IMG/VR virus record: IMGVR_UViG_3300020172_006270
Span: 62,001-126,000 of that record
Reading direction: 5' to 3' (one strand)
From: a virus
Length of the DNA stretch: 64,000 nt
Shown here: positions 13,074 through 23,386 of the stretch, in pieces
Layout of the letters: the number at the start of each line of letters is the position of its first letter
Numbering within the stretch: position 1 is the stretch's first letter
Position numbers and translations under genes: made by a program
Notes under the pieces: generated by a model
The model's database searches: none
What the model saw: the letters and a program-made list of their open reading frames with translations, nothing else
Told to the model about the DNA's origin: nothing

Positions 13074-13075
13074 AG

Positions 13076-13159
13076 TGACCTCGGTGGGACTTGAACCCAC
13101 ACGTCCTTTCGGACACAAGTTCCTAAGACTTGAGCGTATGCCAATTTCGCCACGAGGCC
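13076..13159 (-). tRNA. tRNA-Leu(UAG), class II
   Basis: Cloverleaf with acceptor GGCCTCG/CGAGGTC, anticodon loop CTTAGGA (UAG), long variable arm TGTCCGAAAGGACG, T loop TTCAAGT, discriminator A. No encoded CCA. Confidence 0.95.
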
Positions 13160-13232: not shown

Positions 13233-13235
13233 ACG

Positions 13236-13317
13236 TAGCCCTGGCGGGACTCGAACCCGCAATCCTTTCGGCGACAGATTTTAAGTCTGTTGTGTATACC
13301 AATTCCACCACAGGGCC
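13236..13317 (-). tRNA. tRNA-Leu(UAA), class II
   Basis: Acceptor GGCCCTG/CAGGGCT (G1-U72), D arm GGTGGAATTGGTATACAC, loop CTTAAAA (UAA), variable arm CGCCGAAAGGATTG, T loop TTCGAGT, discriminator A. No encoded CCA. Confidence 0.93.
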
Positions 13318-13532: not shown

Positions 13533-13577
13533 CAAAAAAATGAGCATATCACCTAAGCCTTCTTCGGTGATATGCTC
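13533..13577 (-). terminator. Intrinsic terminator of the 23S-like RNA
   Basis: Perfect 12-bp stem GAGCATATCACC / GGTGATATGCTC with a 12-base loop, followed on the minus strand by A-T7. Confidence 0.85.
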
Positions 13578-13838
13578 CCAGGCACCAGCAATGCAATGCC
13601 GGTGTCGAGTGTCAGGTTGGCTCGGCCAGTGTGCTATTACGCCAAAAGGGATCGCAAACAAGGAAGGCCCAAGTTTTCTCCCTACTCTTTGAATGGACCG
13701 GATTGCTCCGGCGCTGTGGCTGCTTCTAAGCCAACATCCTGGCTGTCTTTGTTTCCCCGAAAGGCAGGTCGTACCTTACCTCTAAATCACTCGATCTACC
13801 GTAGTCATTGTATTCACAATGCTTCCTACAGCGGTTTG
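13542..13838 (-). ncRNA. Free-standing RNA carrying the 23S rRNA GTPase-associated centre (H42-H44 mimic)
   Basis: On the minus strand 13747-13717 reads as 31 bases that match, as I recall it, E. coli 23S rRNA around 1048-1078 (starts GACAGCCAGGATGTTGGC, ends AGAAGCAGCCA). 13642-13621 (GCGTAATAGCACACTGGC then CGAG) matches the partner strand around 1092-1113 with two changes. Both L11/thiostrepton loops (around A1067 and A1095) are intact and GCCAG/CTGGC closes helix 42. In place of the short natural link there are two extra hairpins, one a CCGGA-GCAA-TCCGG stem with a GNRA loop. An outer 7-bp helix (13794-13788 with 13611-13605), a 5' hairpin (CATTGT-GAAT-ACAATG) and a 3' hairpin (CACCGGCA/TGCTGGTG) frame it. 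A terminator follows, so it is not a piece of a full rRNA gene. The 5' end is not fixed; I see no strong promoter of its own, so it may be cotranscribed with 13841-14275. Confidence 0.9.
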
Positions 13839-13840
13839 GC

Positions 13841-14275
13841 TCACTTATCCAACTTGGCAGGCACAGTGCCTTCCTTATTGGACTTGTCGGCAGCGATCTT
13901 TGGCTCAGGAACGAGCCATCGGGTCATTGCCGTAGTCTTAGTATAGCCAAATTGCTGAATGGCAGCGTGATACCCGTCTGCATAATTGTTTTCAGCACCG
14001 CAGAGCTTCAGTGCGTCATCCCAGCCGTCTTGATACGCACCGGGGGTTTGTGGGCCACCGATGCGAATCAGGGCGGCTTTATATCCCTGATCGTAGGTGG
14101 GCTTGCCAGCAAGCTCGGAGATTTCATCCTTGAGAATACGATGCTCGGCATCGTAGATGGAGTTCACCAGCGAGAGTCGCTGATTCTCCTTCTGAATATT
14201 CCAGGTGTGCCACGTCATTGCGCCAATGCACAATGCAGAAATCCCGGCAATGGTCCATCCAGTTTTCGTACTCAT
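13841..14275 (-). CDS. Membrane-anchored hypothetical protein (144 aa)
   Basis: Start at MSTKTGWTIAGIS (14275), preceded by GGAAGA. One N-terminal membrane helix (about 6-24), then a coiled-coil-like segment and a soluble region with two similar stretches, YDQGYKAALI.. and YADGYHAAIQ... The gene ends just upstream of the 23S-like RNA and may share its transcript. Function unknown. Confidence 0.65.
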   Translation of the reverse strand: MSTKTGWTIAGISALCIGAMTWHTWNIQKENQRLSLVNSIYDAEHRILKDEISELAGKPTYDQGYKAALIRIGGPQTPGAYQDGWDDALKLCGAENNYADGYHAAIQQFGYTKTTAMTRWLVPEPKIAADKSNKEGTVPAKLDK

Positions 14276-18400: not shown

Positions 18401-18413
18401 GCGTTTCTTTACA
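18385..18413 (-). promoter_or_regulatory. Promoter of 18083-18361
   Basis: Perfect extended -10 TGG-TATAAT (18390-18385) with TGTAAA 17 bases upstream, overlapping the tuf stop codon and the tuf hairpin. Confidence 0.55.
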
Positions 18414-19581
18414 GCAGTTCCGTCACGACGCCTGAGCCAATCGTCATACCGCCCTCTCGGATAGCGAAATGACTGCCTTTTTCAATGGCAATCGGCTTAT
18501 CCAGGGTGATAAACAGGCAAGTGTTCTCGCCCGGCATAACCAATTCGATTCCTTCCGGCATTTCAACAAGGCCGGTGACGTTAGTGGTTCGGAAGAAGAA
18601 CTGCGGCTTATAACCGTTGAAGATCGGGGTGTGACGCCCGCCCTCATCCTTGCCCAAGACGTAAATTTCACTCTTGAACTTGGTGTGAGGTTTGATACTT
18701 CGTGGTTGTGCCACAACCTGTCCACGCTCCACCTGATCGGCTTTGATGCCTCTCAGCAGCAACCCGACGTTCTGACCAGCTTCGCCAAATTCCAATTGCT
18801 TGTTGAAGGCTTCGACGCTGGTGACAACCGATTCCAGAATGTCTCCCAGGCCCAAGATTTCAACTTTGGTTCCGACCGTGACGGTTCCTTGCTCGATCTT
18901 GCCCGTGACTACACAGCCACGACCTTCGATGTTGTGAACGCCCTCGATAGGCATCAAGAAAGGACGGTCAATAGAACGGCTGGGGTCAGGGATATAAGAA
19001 TCCAGAGCCGCCATCAGTTCTACGATGCACTTGCTTGCTGCGGGATCGGCAGGGTTATCCAGAGCGGGCTTTGCGGCCCCACGGATAAAGGGAGTCTTCT
19101 CACCATCGAAGCCATACTTCGTCAGCAAGTCTCTCGTTTCCATCTCGACCAGTTCGAGCAATTCCTTATCCTGAACCAGATCACACTTATTGAGGAACAC
19201 GACAATATCCGGCACGCCCACCTGACGAGCGAGCAGAATATGCTCTTTCGTCTGAGGCATAGGACCGTCTGCTGCATTGACGAGCAATACAGCGCCGTCC
19301 ATTTGAGCGGCCCCGGTAATCATGTTCTTCACATAGTCGGCGTGACCAGGGCAGTCGATGTGAGCATAGTGACGGGTATCCGTCTCATACTCAACGTGCG
19401 ACGTGGTGATCGTTACCGTTTTGGTAACGTCACGAACGGTGCCGCCCTTGGCGATGTCGCCGTATGCTTTCTTTTTTGCGAAACCCTTTTCGGCCTGAAC
19501 AGCGAGAATAGCTGCGGTCAGGGTCGTCTTCCCGTGGTCAATGTGACCAATCGTTCCGACATTGATGTGGACTTTCTTCAC
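18409..19581 (-). CDS. tuf: Elongation factor Tu with altered switch I
   Basis: GTPase that carries aminoacyl-tRNA to the ribosome. The 390-residue protein keeps all three domains: G1 GHIDHGKT (12-19), DCPGH (76-80, with catalytic His80), NKCD (131-134), and domains 2 and 3 through FAIREGG near the C-terminus. It lacks the short N-terminal tail of E. coli EF-Tu. The odd part is switch I: the usual A-P-E-E-K-A-R-G-I-T-I is replaced by [13 protein letters not shown], keeping only the magnesium-binding Thr57. The rest is very close to bacterial EF-Tu, so this is a local change. A tRNA-Leu gene lies just upstream, like bacterial tRNA-tufB operons. A 7-bp hairpin sits before the AGGAG site. Confidence 0.96.
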
Positions 19582-19615: not shown

Positions 19616-19705
19616 TGTTGGAGGTTTTGATCTCTATATCCCCACTACAGAATAGTGTTTCTACTCACAACGAGTAAGAGCCAAGGCATCCAGAAATCGA
19701 AACAG

Positions 19706-19789
19706 TGCCGCTCCCCGGACTTGAACCGGGACGCCGGTAAAGGCATCAGATTTTGAGTCTGACGTGTCTGCCAATTCCACCAGAGCGGC
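19706..19789 (-). tRNA. tRNA-Leu(CAA), class II
   Basis: Acceptor GCCGCTC/GAGCGGC, D arm with GGCAGACAC, loop CTCAAAA (CAA), variable arm TGCCTTTACCGGCG, discriminator A. No encoded CCA. Lies 124 bases upstream of tuf. Confidence 0.95.
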
Positions 19790-19802
19790 ATAAACAAAAC
19801 AG

Positions 19803-19877
19803 TGACGGGTGTGGGACTCGAACCCACAAAACCATGATTTTAAGTCACGGATGTCTGCCTAGTTGCATCAACCCGCC
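19803..19877 (-). tRNA. Leu-like tRNA(UAA) with short variable loop
   Basis: Acceptor GGCGGGT/ACCCGTC, anticodon stem CGTGA/TCATG with loop CTTAAAA (UAA), variable loop of only five bases (GTTTT), T arm GTGGG-TTCGAGT-CCCAC, discriminator A. The D arm (GATGCAACTAGGCAGACATC) has the GGCAGACA of tRNA-Leu, but the long arm of leucine tRNAs is missing. Confidence 0.85.
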
Positions 19878-19883
19878 ATACAG

Positions 19884-19960
19884 TGCCAGCGGTGGGACTC
19901 GAACCCACAAAACCCCGGCTCTCGACCGGAGATGTCTACCATAGGTTGCATCACGCTGGC
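19884..19960 (-). tRNA. Leu-like tRNA(GAG) with short variable loop
   Basis: Acceptor GCCAGCG/CGCTGGC, anticodon stem TCCGG/CCGGG with loop TCGAGAG (GAG), unusual C at position 33, variable loop GTTTT, discriminator A. D arm GATGCAACCTATGGTAGA then CATC is leucine-like. Confidence 0.8.
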
Positions 19961-19964
19961 ATAT

Positions 19965-19986
19965 AGTGCCGGATCGCTCCAGCACT
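19965..19986 (-). other. Hairpin upstream of short-arm tRNA pair
   Basis: AGTGCTGGA-GCGA-TCCGGCACT, a 9-bp stem with a GNRA-type loop, four bases upstream of the Leu-like tRNA(GAG). No T run follows, so it is more likely a processing or leader structure than a terminator. Confidence 0.45.
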
Positions 19987-19992
19987 AATCTC

Positions 19993-20295
19993 TTAATCCT
20001 CACCACGCAACTCTTTGAGTTGTTCGTTGTAGTCCACGTCAGACTTCAATTCGTGATTGTGCTTTGACCGCTTTGGATACTTGTCGCTATGACAGATGCC
20101 GCACTGCGGATTGCCACAATCGAAAGCGTCTTTCTTACGGAATCGACCCTTCTGTTCATCACATTCACAGTCAACAACATATGCGCTGACGCCAATGCGA
20201 TTTCTTGTCCAGGTTTTGTTGCTCTCAACGTGAGAGCGCCGGTGTTTCTTCCACTCACGCAGAGTGATCTTGTAATCCTCGTGCCACCGCTTCAT
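19993..20295 (-). CDS. Small zinc-binding phage protein (100 aa)
   Basis: Start at MKRWHEDYKITLREWKKH, preceded by GGAGG. Basic, with VDCECDEQKGRFRKKDAFDCG then NPQCGICHSDKYPKR, a four-plus cysteine metal site of a type common in unannotated phage proteins. Function unknown. Confidence 0.7.
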   Translation of the reverse strand: MKRWHEDYKITLREWKKHRRSHVESNKTWTRNRIGVSAYVVDCECDEQKGRFRKKDAFDCGNPQCGICHSDKYPKRSKHNHELKSDVDYNEQLKELRGED

Positions 20296-20365
20296 CGTTC
20301 CCTCCATAATGGGTTTGGGTAATAGGCTCGATGAAGCCGATGATTTGCGTGTGGTGAGTGTTCAT
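20255..20365 (-). CDS. Possible 36-aa small protein
   Basis: ATG at 20365 follows AGAGAG and reads MNTHHTQIIGFIEPITQTHY... to a stop at 20255, overlapping the next gene by 41 bases. It fills the only gap in this stretch. Supported only by ribosome site and context. Confidence 0.35.
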   Translation of the reverse strand: MNTHHTQIIGFIEPITQTHYGGNDEAVARGLQDHSA

Positions 20366-20376
20366 GTTTATTCTCT

Positions 20377-20829
20377 CTAGTTAAGGAAGCAACAGTCCGG
20401 GTTGGGACACCAATCTCCGAACTCTTCGGATTGGGTGTCAGAAATCAATCGTGTGTAACAGCAACGGCAATGTCCTTTGACCCACCATGCTGGGCCGAAC
20501 CATCGAAAGCCGCCACGAGTTGTTTCGTAGTAGCATCCAATTCGTTCTAGCCAATCCATAATAGTGTGGGCGATCATTCGCCGTTCAGCATCACGCCATG
20601 AGTAAGGAAATTCATGCCACTCATAGCCATGACCACTTTCTCGGTATTGATGATCTCGACCGAGATACTTCCATGATTTTTGCTTGCGAACAAACTGATC
20701 GTCCCATGCCGTGGGAAGGTTTCGTCTCTTCCCACGGACATAGGGATCATTGCGGTCTTGGTTCGCTCTTATTTCTTGTGTTGTTCTCGGATACCGAAGG
20801 CACGTCGAGAACCATCTTTTCTTTGCCAT
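20377..20829 (-). CDS. Hypothetical protein with C-terminal zinc ribbon (150 aa)
   Basis: Basic N-terminal half, then a segment RDAERRMIAHTIMDWLERIGCYYETTRGG and a terminal GHCRCCYTR...DWCPNPDCC zinc-ribbon pattern. AGGAGA precedes the ATG, with a small hairpin (AAGTGC-ATTCC-GCACTT) partly covering it. Unknown function. Confidence 0.65.
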   Translation of the reverse strand: MAKKRWFSTCLRYPRTTQEIRANQDRNDPYVRGKRRNLPTAWDDQFVRKQKSWKYLGRDHQYRESGHGYEWHEFPYSWRDAERRMIAHTIMDWLERIGCYYETTRGGFRWFGPAWWVKGHCRCCYTRLISDTQSEEFGDWCPNPDCCFLN

Positions 20830-20954
20830 GTAGCGTTTCTCCTAAGTGCGGAATGCACTTAAAAGACGCTACCCAGCCTTTCGTGAATTTTCATACGAGT
20901 CCTTTTACTTTGTTCTTTCAAATATGTGGACTGTCGAATCCTTGACAGTTTTAC

Positions 20955-21029
20955 TTACCGATCATAGGCGATCCTATCGCTACCGGGGTCAGCCTCATGT
21001 TCATCCTGAACATCAGCGTCCACTTCCAT
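20955..21029 (-). CDS. Possible 24-aa acidic peptide
   Basis: ATG overlaps the TGA of the upstream gene (TGATG) and reads MEVDADVQDEHEADPGSDR... to a stop at 20955. The other bases of the 20830-21028 gap hold only the leader of the next gene. Low support. Confidence 0.3.
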   Translation of the reverse strand: MEVDADVQDEHEADPGSDRIAYDR

Positions 21030-21541
21030 CAACCCGTCCAAATTTCTTCTTTTCCAGTCGGCGGGTCATTCAATCTCTTCAAAAATTTACCTGTATATTT
21101 ATGGTCTTCGGGGTTCAAACCCTTCCGCAAATACCGCACATCTGGTGTTACTTCTCGTTCCGAATACTGATATTCAATGCCCAGCCGAGTGTGTTTGATG
21201 ATTTTCTTTTCTTTATCCACCCATTCGTATTCACGAGCCTGATCGACAACTACAGTGCCTTTCATGCCTTCGATGTCGATGTCATATTCGTGCATGTTCT
21301 GGATTTCAATTTCGTCTTCTTCAACCAACGCCCAACAAGGATAGCTGTACCGTTTAGGCGGTGGGTTTTCATGGATCGGTCCACCCATCAACATTCGTCG
21401 CAAGAGAGCCGAGTGGCCAACATCAGCCGAACTTGAACCTCGTTTATTGTCTTCGCAGATATTCATCCACTGGCAAACCATCTTGCAAGCGAACTCACAC
21501 TGCTCACGAGTCAACGATGTAACTTTTTCTTCGTCCATCAT
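21029..21541 (-). CDS. Hypothetical protein (170 aa)
   Basis: Start at MMDEEKVTSLTRE (21541), with GGAG six bases upstream and the tRNA 3' end close by. Acidic, with a beta-rich middle (YPCWALVEEDEIEIQNMHEYDIDIEG). No family recognised. Confidence 0.65.
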   Translation of the reverse strand: MMDEEKVTSLTREQCEFACKMVCQWMNICEDNKRGSSSADVGHSALLRRMLMGGPIHENPPPKRYSYPCWALVEEDEIEIQNMHEYDIDIEGMKGTVVVDQAREYEWVDKEKKIIKHTRLGIEYQYSEREVTPDVRYLRKGLNPEDHKYTGKFLKRLNDPPTGKEEIWTG

Positions 21542-21555
21542 ATTCTCCAACAAAG

Positions 21556-21632
21556 TACCCAGGACGGGACTCGAACCCGTAAAACCGATATTTTGAGTAT
21601 CGGATGTCTACCGAAGGTTGCATCACCTGGGC
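21556..21632 (-). tRNA. Leu-like tRNA(CAA) with short variable loop
   Basis: Acceptor GCCCAGG/CCTGGGT, D arm GATGCAACCTTCGGTAGA then CATC, anticodon stem CGATA/TATCG with loop CTCAAAA (CAA), variable loop GTTTT, T arm ACGGG/CCCGT, discriminator A. A TGTACA-17-TGG-TAGAAT promoter-like site (21663-21635) abuts the 5' end, closer than a normal start site would allow. Confidence 0.85.
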
Positions 21633-21669
21633 ATATTCTACCAAATCTCGTCTTGGCTGTACAGCCAAG

Positions 21670-21757
21670 TGGACAGCGACGGAATCGAACCGCTCCGGCA
21701 CCCACCCTACTTTTTTAATGCCAACGGATTTACAGTCCGCCGTAAGGAACGCTATCC
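21670..21757 (-). tRNA. tRNA-Tyr(GUA) with nearly absent D arm
   Basis: Acceptor GGATAGC/GCTGTCC, anticodon stem GCGGA/TCCGT with loop CTGTAAA (GUA), a large variable arm closed by GGCA/TGCC, T loop TTCGATT, discriminator A. Only about ten bases (GTTCCTTACG) lie between acceptor and anticodon stem, compared with about 19-25 in normal tRNA-Tyr, so the D arm is reduced to at most a 2-bp stem. Confidence 0.75.
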
Positions 21758-21813
21758 ATGTTTTCCTAAAAACAGGTGTTTTCCCACATAGGAAAACATG
21801 CGTTTTTAGGAAA
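21757..21813. repeat. Overlapping palindromes beside tRNA-Tyr
   Basis: Two perfect inverted repeats share one arm: CATGTTTTCCT (21757-21767) with 21790-21800, and TTTCCTAAAAAC (21762-21773) with 21802-21813. They cannot form at once, so the leader of tRNA-Tyr could switch between two hairpins. Confidence 0.7.
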
Positions 21814-21814
21814 G

Positions 21815-21888
21815 TCGCTCCGGTGGGACTCGAACCCACAGCATCCCTGGTTCTAAGCCAAGGTGGTCTGCCAATTGCCTACAGAGCG
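21815..21888 (-). tRNA. Leu-like tRNA(UAG) with short variable loop
   Basis: Acceptor CGCTCTG/CGGAGCG, anticodon stem CTTGG/CCAGG with loop CTTAGAA (UAG), short variable loop, T arm GTGGG-TTCGAGT-CCCAC, discriminator A. D loop carries GGCAGACC. Confidence 0.8.
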
Positions 21889-21894
21889 TTCAAG

Positions 21895-21966
21895 TGGACT
21901 GTGAGGCGCTCGAATCCTCGTCTCAGCGTTTTCAGCGCTGCGCTACACCATCTCAGCTAACAGTCC
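21895..21966 (-). tRNA. tRNA-Phe(GAA), copy 1
   Basis: Acceptor GGACTGT/ACAGTCC, anticodon stem CAGCG/CGCTG with loop CTGAAAA (GAA), discriminator A. The T arm (GAGGA-TTCGAGC-GCCTC) has one mismatch. Confidence 0.88.
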
Positions 21967-21974
21967 ATATACAG

Positions 21975-22058
21975 TGTCCGAGGGGAGAGTCGAACTCCCA
22001 CGCCTTTTACGGCACAAGGCCCTCAACCTTGCGTGTCTACCAATTTCACCACTCGGAC
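21975..22058 (-). tRNA. tRNA-Leu(GAG), class II
   Basis: Acceptor GTCCGAG/CTCGGAC, D arm GGTGAAATTGGTAGACAC, loop TTGAGGG (GAG), variable arm TGCCGTAAAAGGCG, discriminator A. Confidence 0.95.
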
Positions 22059-22070
22059 AAAACAAATCAG

Positions 22071-22145
22071 TGGGCTGTCTCAGAGTCGAACTGAGTTCTC
22101 ATGTTCTTCAGACATGCGCTGAATGACCGCACTAGCTCACAGCCC
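22071..22145 (-). tRNA. tRNA-Phe(GAA), copy 2
   Basis: Acceptor GGGCTGT/ACAGCCC, anticodon stem CATGT/ACATG with loop CTGAAGA (GAA), T arm CTCAG-TTCGACT-CTGAG, discriminator A. Sequence differs strongly from copy 1, so it is not a recent duplicate. Confidence 0.88.
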
Positions 22146-22154
22146 AATATTCAA

Positions 22155-22334
22155 TTATTCTTTTGTTGCTTCTTCAAGTTCCCTGATGCAATCTCGCAAT
22201 GATATTGTTCGTCCATGCTGGACGCCCATTGCAGTCAATGGGTTCATATCTTTTGCGACATTAGGATTCTCTTGAAATCGCTTCAATCGTTCTTTCCATT
22301 TTTGAATCAATTCTTGTATATTTGTTTCTTGCAT
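22155..22334 (-). CDS. Small helical protein (59 aa)
   Basis: Start MQETNIQELIQKWKERLK, with AAGGA upstream. Likely two amphipathic helices with the segment NPLTAMGVQHGRTISLRDCIRELEE. Sits inside the tRNA array. Unknown function. Confidence 0.6.
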   Translation of the reverse strand: MQETNIQELIQKWKERLKRFQENPNVAKDMNPLTAMGVQHGRTISLRDCIRELEEATKE

Positions 22335-22350
22335 ATTTAATCCTTCCAAG

Positions 22351-22434
22351 TCTCCGGGGGGAGAGTCGAACTCCCACGCCTTTTACGGCACAAGATTCTG
22401 AGTCTTGCGTGTCTACCAATTCCACCACCCGGAG
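22351..22434 (-). tRNA. tRNA-Leu(CAG), class II
   Basis: Acceptor CTCCGGG/CCCGGAG, loop CTCAGAA (CAG), variable arm TGCCGTAAAAGGCG nearly identical to tRNA-Leu(GAG), discriminator A. It completes the set of five leucine anticodons. Confidence 0.95.
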
Positions 22435-22441
22435 ATAAAAG

Positions 22442-22530
22442 CGGAAGTCAAGGGAATTGAACCCTTACCGGATATTTCACCGGGCCTGTTTTCAAGACAG
22501 GTGCAACAAACCAATATTTGCCTAACTTCC
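22442..22530 (-). tRNA. tRNA-Ser(UGA)
   Basis: Acceptor GGAAGTT/GACTTCC, loop CTTGAAA (UGA), long variable arm CCCGGTGAAATATCCGGT, discriminator G. Confidence 0.94.
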
Positions 22531-22548
22531 ATATTGTGTCAACAACTT

Positions 22549-22632
22549 TGACATAGAGGATACACCGGCTTCGACACCGGATATGTCCCGTTTCTAGCAG
22601 GATGAGTTACATTTCTCCATGTACTCCATATC
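22549..22632 (-). ncRNA. Degenerate tRNA-like element
   Basis: Lies between two tRNA-Ser genes. Ends can pair (GATATGGAG with CTCTATGTC), TACAT/ATGTA could be a D stem, TCCTG-CTAGAAA-CGGGA looks like an anticodon stem-loop (AGA), and CCGG-TGTCGAAG-CCGG resembles a T arm. The T arm does not abut the acceptor, so it is either a decayed tRNA or a tRNA-shaped RNA. Confidence 0.35.
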
Positions 22633-22646
22633 GCATTTGACACAAG

Positions 22647-22733
22647 CGGAAGCCAAGGGAATTGAACCCTCACCGGGATTAACCGGGCCTGTTTTCGAGA
22701 CAGGTGCAACAAACCAGTATTTGCCTAGCTTCC
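22647..22733 (-). tRNA. tRNA-Ser(CGA)
   Basis: Acceptor GGAAGCT/GGCTTCC, loop CTCGAAA (CGA), variable arm CCCGGTTAATCCCGGT, discriminator G. Confidence 0.94.
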
Positions 22734-22746
22734 ATAAAACAACAAG

Positions 22747-22836
22747 CGGAGGACAAGGGAATCGAACCCTCACCGGGTATTTCACCGGATCGGTTTAGCA
22801 AACCGACGTAGCAACACCACCATCTACCTATCCTCC
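22747..22836 (-). tRNA. tRNA-Ser(GCU)
   Basis: Acceptor GGAGGAT/GTCCTCC, loop TTGCTAA (GCU), long variable arm closed by CCGG, discriminator G. Confidence 0.94.
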
Positions 22837-22842
22837 ATTCAG

Positions 22843-22931
22843 CGGAAGCCAAGGGAATTGAACCCTCACCGGATATTTCACCGGACCCGCTTTCCAGGCG
22901 AGCGCAACAAACCAGTATTTGCCTAGCTTCC
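22843..22931 (-). tRNA. tRNA-Ser(GGA)
   Basis: Acceptor GGAAGCT/GGCTTCC, loop CTGGAAA (GGA), long variable arm, discriminator G. D and acceptor arms are nearly identical to tRNA-Ser(CGA). Confidence 0.94.
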
Positions 22932-22987
22932 GTGTAATGCACTATACTTTGAACATTAACCAGGGCTAATGTTCATTCTATCGTACA

Positions 22988-23287
22988 TTATGCTTCAACC
23001 TTCACCAACTTGCCAAAGATACAGTTCCGGCCAACCCAGCCATTGATATGGCCTTTGTTGTTGCCGATCTGGAATCGGTCGCCTTGTATTGCTTTGATTA
23101 AGTGCAGGTATTGTTTGCCTGCAACTTTGCACAATACAATGTCGCCCGTATCCAAAACGCCAGTCACCGGCTCGACAGTGCATAACTGTCCTGATTCGAT
23201 CTTCCCGACCATTGAGTTGCCTCGTGGTCGAAACGAAACCGTCTCACCTGTTTGGAGTTTCGCTATGTAACCAGTCGCCCATCCCAT
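22988..23287 (-). CDS. S24/S26-type peptidase-like protein
   Basis: 99 residues forming just a LexA/signal-peptidase catalytic fold: FRPRGNSMVGKIESGQ holds the likely nucleophile Ser in G-N-S-M, VLDTGDIVLCKV the second strand, and YLHLIKAIQGDRFQIGNN the region with the general-base Lys. There is no DNA-binding domain and no membrane anchor. It could be a self-standing protease domain or an inactive relative. It sits inside the tRNA array. Confidence 0.75.
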   Translation of the reverse strand: MGWATGYIAKLQTGETVSFRPRGNSMVGKIESGQLCTVEPVTGVLDTGDIVLCKVAGKQYLHLIKAIQGDRFQIGNNKGHINGWVGRNCIFGKLVKVEA

Positions 23288-23302
23288 AGTAATTCTCCAA
23301 GT

Positions 23303-23386
23303 GCATCCGGCAGGAATCGAACCTGCATGTCCCGAAGGAGGCTGGGTTACAGCCAGCTAGACCCACCACACTGTCTAACGGATGCG
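23303..23386 (-). tRNA. tRNA-Tyr(GUA), class II
   Basis: Acceptor GCATCCG/CGGATGC, anticodon stem GCTGG/CCAGC with loop CTGTAAC (GUA), variable arm with CTCCTTCGGGACAT, T loop TTCGATT, discriminator A. A normal D arm is present, unlike the other tRNA-Tyr. Confidence 0.93.

Follow-up and report, generated by a model that had tools for sequence, protein, structure and literature searches.

We find that many large phages carry a free-standing RNA that is almost certainly a mimic, maintained by selection, of the domain of 23S rRNA that binds L11 (helices 42-44). In the window, the whole 64,000-nt stretch of a virus record analysed here, this RNA is a non-coding element of about 300 nt on the minus strand at approximately 13541-13838. 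A search of open-licence papers found no description of a phage RNA mimicking either the L11 site or the L1 stalk, the RNA lies outside the Rfam 15 families, and to our knowledge no virus has been reported to copy a piece of rRNA as a separate RNA. This agrees with the remark in a first-pass annotation of the sequence that an RNA of this kind was undescribed.

The L11-site RNA gene of the window

The first-pass annotation had proposed that a free-standing phage RNA copies the GTPase-associated centre of 23S rRNA, and sequence searches bear this out. In a BLAST comparison, positions 1043-1077 of E. coli 23S rRNA matched window 13751-13717 at 34/35 bases (97%, E 9e-9), which confirms the 5' block of that proposal and places the RNA on the minus strand, a correction to the annotation. 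This was the single match of E. coli 23S rRNA in the window; other rRNA parts are absent, as had been stated. The bacterial large-subunit covariance model (LSU_rRNA_bacteria), which had been named as a check, matched window 13621-13751 on the minus strand (G000:C1:75621-75751 in the 223-kb virus record) with an E-value of 1.6e-7. The score for this LSU rRNA family (RF02541) was 27.3 bits, under its gathering cut-off of 50 and for model positions 1084-1153 only, and the family was missing from the cmscan output when the window stretch was scanned alone. Among the Rfam 15 families, only tRNAs reached the gathering score in the window and in 15 related loci, and L002 gave no match. A DUF805b hit (21.3 bits against a cut-off of 35.6) spanned the strand of helix 44 and some of the inserted sequence, and was set aside as a likely chance similarity to AAAGAGUAGG. 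The parts of the gene and its neighbours are as follows.

13541-13838, minus strand: whole RNA gene; the terminator marks its 3' end, and the 5' end is inferred from the hairpin and the stop codon that lies upstream
13799-13834, minus strand: 5' hairpin CCGCUGUAG...CUACGG (MFE fold)
13788-13794, minus strand: outer closing helix, 5' strand UCGAGUG (sequence and MFE fold)
13717-13751, minus strand: 23S 1043-1077, comprising the 5' strand of helix 42 together with helix 43, whose loop is UUAGAAGC (97% identity over 35 nt by blastn, E 9e-9)
13696-13716, minus strand: insertion 1, a hairpin between A1077 and C1079 (sequence)
13684-13695, minus strand: 23S 1079-1090, CAUUCAAAGAGU (sequence comparison)
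13643-13683, minus strand: insertion 2, between U1090 and G1091, 37 nt plus a UUUG linker, at the family-wide site
13619-13642, minus strand: 23S 1091-1114, helix 44 tip with loop GUAAUA and helix 42 3' strand (sequence and LSU model)
13605-13611, minus strand: outer closing helix, 3' strand CACUCGA (sequence and MFE fold)
13534-13577, minus strand: intrinsic terminator, 12-bp stem and U tract (sequence and MFE fold)
13235-13317, minus strand: tRNA-Leu(UAA), downstream neighbour on the same strand
13075-13159, minus strand: tRNA-Leu(UAG), downstream neighbour on the same strand

The gene is flanked by a 169-aa open frame (ending at 13841) and by the two tRNA-Leu genes. Its 3' block GCGTAATAGCACACTGGCCGAG equals 23S 1091-1112 with the changes U1101A and U1108C, and corresponds to the 22-base block with two changes of the first reading. 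The earlier view that two hairpins replace the natural link needs revision: two separate insertions are indeed present, but the block CAUUCAAAGAGU, which holds the 1082-1086 pair and the 5' strand of helix 44, is retained. Because this middle block had been missed, helix 44 is less rebuilt than was thought. Insertion 2 contains the helix AGGGA/UCCCU, in which 13683-13679 pair with 13651-13647. The outer closing helix (13794-13788 with 13611-13605) and the strong terminator (13577-13534), both described in the first reading, are found in the sequence as well as in the MFE fold, and a further hairpin lies between them. The counterparts of A1067 and A1095 are 13727 and 13638, and this copy has A at both. 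When folded, the 301-nt whole RNA is more stable than its shuffles (z -3.5), and the 216-nt part without the terminator is unremarkable against them (z -1.0).

Distribution and conserved fold of the RNA family

The search for the same RNA in other phages, which had also been suggested, proved productive. The RNA with both halves was extracted from 206 loci, corresponding to 159 distinct cores, and is present in 19 isolated phages including GAP32, CBB, BF, XacN1, ME3 and pf16. The first relative was an unannotated 26-base match in Pectobacterium phage CBB, found by BLAST of a phage collection; the CBB copy has the same anatomy as the window RNA with a larger insert. The RNA occupies one conserved genome position in CBB, GAP32, BF, XbC2 and Kaldavass, and six Erwinia SNUABM phages gave matches equal to those of this group. 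It is found at other positions in XaC1, XacN1, ME3, 4_4572, pf16 and UNO-G1W1, and in Astolliot and Milchi the match is in two pieces. Several members belong to isolates whose hosts can be grown (GAP32, CBB, BF, XacN1, ME3, pf16, 4_4572 and UNO-G1W1), which makes the RNA testable now.

DNA patterns that differed in gap length retrieved 5, 48 and 18 contigs from IMG/VR, one of the first five (L007) being probably a chance match. The 3' signature alone was found in at least 119 IMG/VR contigs, and a search for only the 5' half, from which real rRNA was removed, gave 76; all of the newly found complete 5'-half copies have a 3' half 20-330 nt downstream. The 3' signature also occurred in 16 contigs of a bacterial genome collection, 12 of them with the 5' half too. 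A narrow DNA pattern for the window's own layout gave no match, nor did a second one aimed at near relatives of this copy. Two contigs carry two copies of the RNA in one phage (3300021399_000004 with L016 and L133; 3300028591_000087 with L116 and L163), and at L159 two L11-site RNA copies are about 300 nt apart. The record of Paenibacillus phage Pd_22F (MZ092003.1; L003:906-4011) contains unannotated full 23S and 5S genes, which are probably host sequence.

In every copy an insert interrupts the domain between U1090 and G1091; its length ranges from 23 to 365 nt (median 140). Position 1101, which is U in rRNA, is A in nearly all copies and G in a few, so that U1090 can pair with A1101. A covarying helix that directly abuts U1090 on one side and the UUUG/UUUA linker on the other joins the ends of the insert; its first four steps are paired in 164/164, 163/164, 150/164 and 112/164 distinct members, compared to shuffle means of 100, 86, 67 and 62. 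Inserts of 23-62 nt exist, and because they shrink to as little as 23 nt (L195), the core is the constant part of the RNA. Classes of insert have their own conserved motifs (CACCCCGUAAAUGGUAAGG; GACCCUUAGAG; GUGCGAAAUG...AUGAUGUGC), and a minority of copies (the window, L010, L022, L029, L063, L132 and L155) has a second insertion after A1077. Below approximately 1047/1112, helix 42 is an unrelated plain helix in nearly all members, which likewise have a plain helix instead of the L10 stalk kink-turn sequence; the window copy retains rRNA-like bases at 1043-1055 and 1104-1113. Judged from sequence, the shared split, U1101 change and insert helix are derived features that argue for a probable single origin of the family from rRNA.

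Across 64 diverse cores, helices 42, 43 and 44 together with the 1082-1086 pair gave 92.6% paired cells, 336 double-changed cells and a covariation of 0.582. Shuffled alignments averaged a covariation of 0.136 (sd 0.010), and controls with slid partners did not exceed 0.195. None of 500 shuffles attained the observed paired cells, double changes or covariation. Helix 44 is nearly invariant across the cores and adds no covariation because it hardly varies. The tertiary pair 1082-1086 is paired in 150/159 cores, as UA, CG or AU. Phage ME3 has U1072.(U1092-A1099) where other copies have C.(C-G), an exchange reportedly seen in genuine rRNA; an exception is L220, with a U-A pair at 1092-1099 but C1072 kept. 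Invariant in the 159 cores are G1059, U1060, U1066, G1071, C1072, A1077, C1079, A1084, A1085, G1087, A1088, G1091, G1093, A1098 and C1100, some of which had been part of the search patterns.

The bases A1067, A1095 and A1096, which are the thiostrepton and factor-contact bases of 23S rRNA, behave differently. In unbiased sets, that is, copies not selected for the bases being counted, A1067 is not A in 18/68 copies (found by the 3' half alone), while A1095 is changed in 6/32 and A1096 in 13/32 (found by the 5' half alone). In genuine rRNA, A1067 and A1095 are near-invariant. Drift at these three positions around an invariant core would point to a ligand that recognises the folded core, for example uL11, rather than to a drug or an elongation factor, and it would also fit another ligand reading the same core. 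The hundreds of natural variants amount to an evolutionary mutagenesis of one of the best-studied RNA folds, separating the bases needed by the fold from those needed only by a working ribosome.

Genomic context and proposed function

Of 183 loci, 104 have a tRNA gene within 500 nt of the RNA, in each case on its strand, compared to 36% for random points in the same loci, and the RNA is therefore probably made and processed together with the phage tRNAs. The window itself has 14 tRNA genes including the two near 13 kb, 7/14 of them Leu; the other 12 lie at 19705-23385 (minus) and are specific for Leu, Phe, Ser and Tyr only. A search of 17 carriers revealed no L11 gene, and any L11 target would therefore belong to the host. 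Annotated carrier phages share no downstream gene; next to the RNA they have tRNAs and hypothetical genes.

In the first 17 genomes the RNA seemed to co-occur strikingly with phage L12 or EF-Tu, but this was lost against controls, which were 25 large tRNA-rich contigs, one of them also with the RNA signature. L12 above cut-off was present in 4/25 carriers and 2/25 controls (any L12 match, 9/25 and 5/25), and a GTP_EFTU protein in 1/25 large carriers and 1/25 controls. Clear L7/L12 C-terminal domain proteins occur in two carriers (G014:C1:292735-292932 and G018:C1:284586-284783, in 131-151 aa frames), and the GTP_EFTU match of carrier G013 (433 kb) falls in a frame of 695 aa, as long as an EF-G.

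Titration of L11 is the reading that we favour. We judge it somewhat more likely than not that the RNA binds uL11, and the chances seem evenly balanced that it is a trans-acting decoy which adopts the fold of the L11 site and holds host uL11 off the ribosome. Under this mechanism, the phage RNA would fold like helices 42-44 and capture host uL11 away from the ribosome, and it may be abundant enough to deplete the protein. Ribosomes poor in L11 could then help the phage, most plausibly by way of blunted RelA-dependent ppGpp synthesis. L11 depletion may also alter termination and elongation; L11 matters for RF1 termination. Free GAC RNA is bound by L11 only in its folded state (PMC8373061), and RelA activation requires L11 and its N-terminal domain (PMC4974054). 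The insert helix, which would replace upper helix 44, may keep the RNA out of the 50S assembly path and may carry the family-specific additions; the insert at U1090/G1091 could also disturb the L11 site. The weak point of the decoy mechanism is the amount of RNA, as ribosomes are many: because uL11 is as abundant as ribosomes, titration would need a very abundant RNA. Less RNA would suffice if newly made uL11 were captured or if the protein exchanged off the stalk base, which is accessible. If uL11 is bound, phages would have a direct hold on the ribosomal region behind translation-factor action and the stringent response.

Another kind of decoy, which we regard as unlikely, would soak up a host nuclease, modification enzyme or defence factor recognising the GTPase-associated centre and thereby spare the ribosome. 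A conserved core with a variable insert would suit this role, as would the spread over unrelated phages and the position beside tRNA genes (phage tRNA genes can also answer host nuclease attack). However, our literature search found no enzyme targeting helices 43-44, we know of no defence enzyme that does so, and the loop bases 1067, 1095 and 1096 drift. Marginally less likely again is a scaffold, in which uL11 or a phage protein grips the GAC core while the function resides in the variable insert, for instance as a regulatory or packaging RNA. The insert classes with conserved motifs and the covarying helix that closes the insert are consistent with a scaffold, but the 23-62 nt inserts mean that no large payload is common to all members.

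It is improbable that the RNA is a trap for a thiostrepton-type antibiotic or for EF-G/EF-Tu. The first-pass annotation had considered both the blocking of antibiotics and a link with the phage EF-Tu; the A1067 and A1095 loops are present, and the window encodes a full-length EF-Tu (18409-19581, minus; 390 aa, TIGR00485 601 bits). Neither idea fared well, as the loop bases drift in the unbiased sets and EF-Tu genes are not enriched in carriers. We find it more improbable still that the RNA is a cis-acting leader of a phage ribosomal-protein or translation gene. Ribosomal-protein leaders are known to mimic rRNA, the L10 leader being an Rfam family, and this offers a precedent, but the 17 carriers are without an L11 gene, annotated phages share no downstream gene, many copies lie between tRNA genes and several, such as those of the window and L009, end in a terminator. 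Finally, contamination by host rRNA, which the annotation had itself raised, or a decaying rRNA pseudogene is refuted: although the first search had matched 27 phage records, a good many of which are clearly contaminating 23S, other 23S parts are absent near 204/206 loci (the two exceptions are L1-stalk mimics), the cores show compensatory changes, and the copies share the insert, U1101A and a fixed position in complete phage genomes.

Comparison of other E. coli rRNA with the locus flanks gave two further strong matches, both to the L1-binding stalk (23S 2110-2182) and both free-standing, in two contigs of large phages.

L095:1640-1713, minus strand: L1-stalk mimic
L207:1720-1793, plus strand: L1-stalk mimic

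Each is on the same strand as the L11-site RNA, 0.7-2 kb apart from it, and the changes are compensatory (GGUGG/CCACC to GGCGA/UCGCC; GGC/GCC to GAC/GUC). Covariation was 0.587 versus 0.219 for shuffles, in an alignment that includes six genuine rRNAs. A model of the L1 stalk run over 348 loci matched only its two source copies. A weaker match at L010:371-440 (plus) is a hairpin like the 16S 530 loop (UCCGUGGUGUUCCAGCAGCCGCGGAAAUACGGA; 27 nt, two changes, E 0.002), on the strand opposite the L11-site RNA and with a possible pseudoknot counterpart. The L1-stalk mimics in L095 and L207 point to ribosomal-protein sites as the shared theme, and so support the view that such binding sites are being copied. 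Beyond the titration of L11 that we favour, we tentatively suggest, as something short of an even prospect, that large phages may have a toolkit of free ribosomal-domain RNAs that strip or withhold stalk proteins and reprogram host ribosomes in infection. It would comprise the L11 site, copied by hundreds of them, the L1 stalk of L095 and L207, and perhaps the 16S 530 loop of L010.

Comparison with known systems

The phage RNA shares with the GTPase-associated centre of 23S rRNA the sequence and base pairs of helices 43 and 44, along with the contacts 1082-1086, C1072 with C1092-G1099 and U1060 with A1088. Whereas that centre is a 58-nt L11-binding domain within the ribosome, the phage RNA is free-standing and outside any ribosome. 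It further differs in its U1090/G1091 insert, in the change of U1101 to A, in the replacement of lower helix 42 in nearly all copies and in its drifting 1067, 1095 and 1096 bases.

Ribosomal-protein leaders (L10, L1 and others) are likewise RNAs outside rRNA that copy a ribosomal-protein site. However, they are cis-acting leaders of bacterial mRNAs, while the phage RNA is a separate gene, often among tRNAs and without an adjoining ribosomal-protein gene. GOLLD and ROOL are often found near phage tRNA genes. They too are structured phage non-coding RNAs, of large and ornate form (PMC12286853), but they form separate Rfam families without known similarity to rRNA, and neither matches the present RNA. 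The pseudo-ToxI RNA of phage PhiTE is also a phage-encoded RNA that imitates a host RNA, but its model is the antitoxin of a toxin-antitoxin system (PMC3475682), whereas the RNA described here imitates ribosomal RNA.
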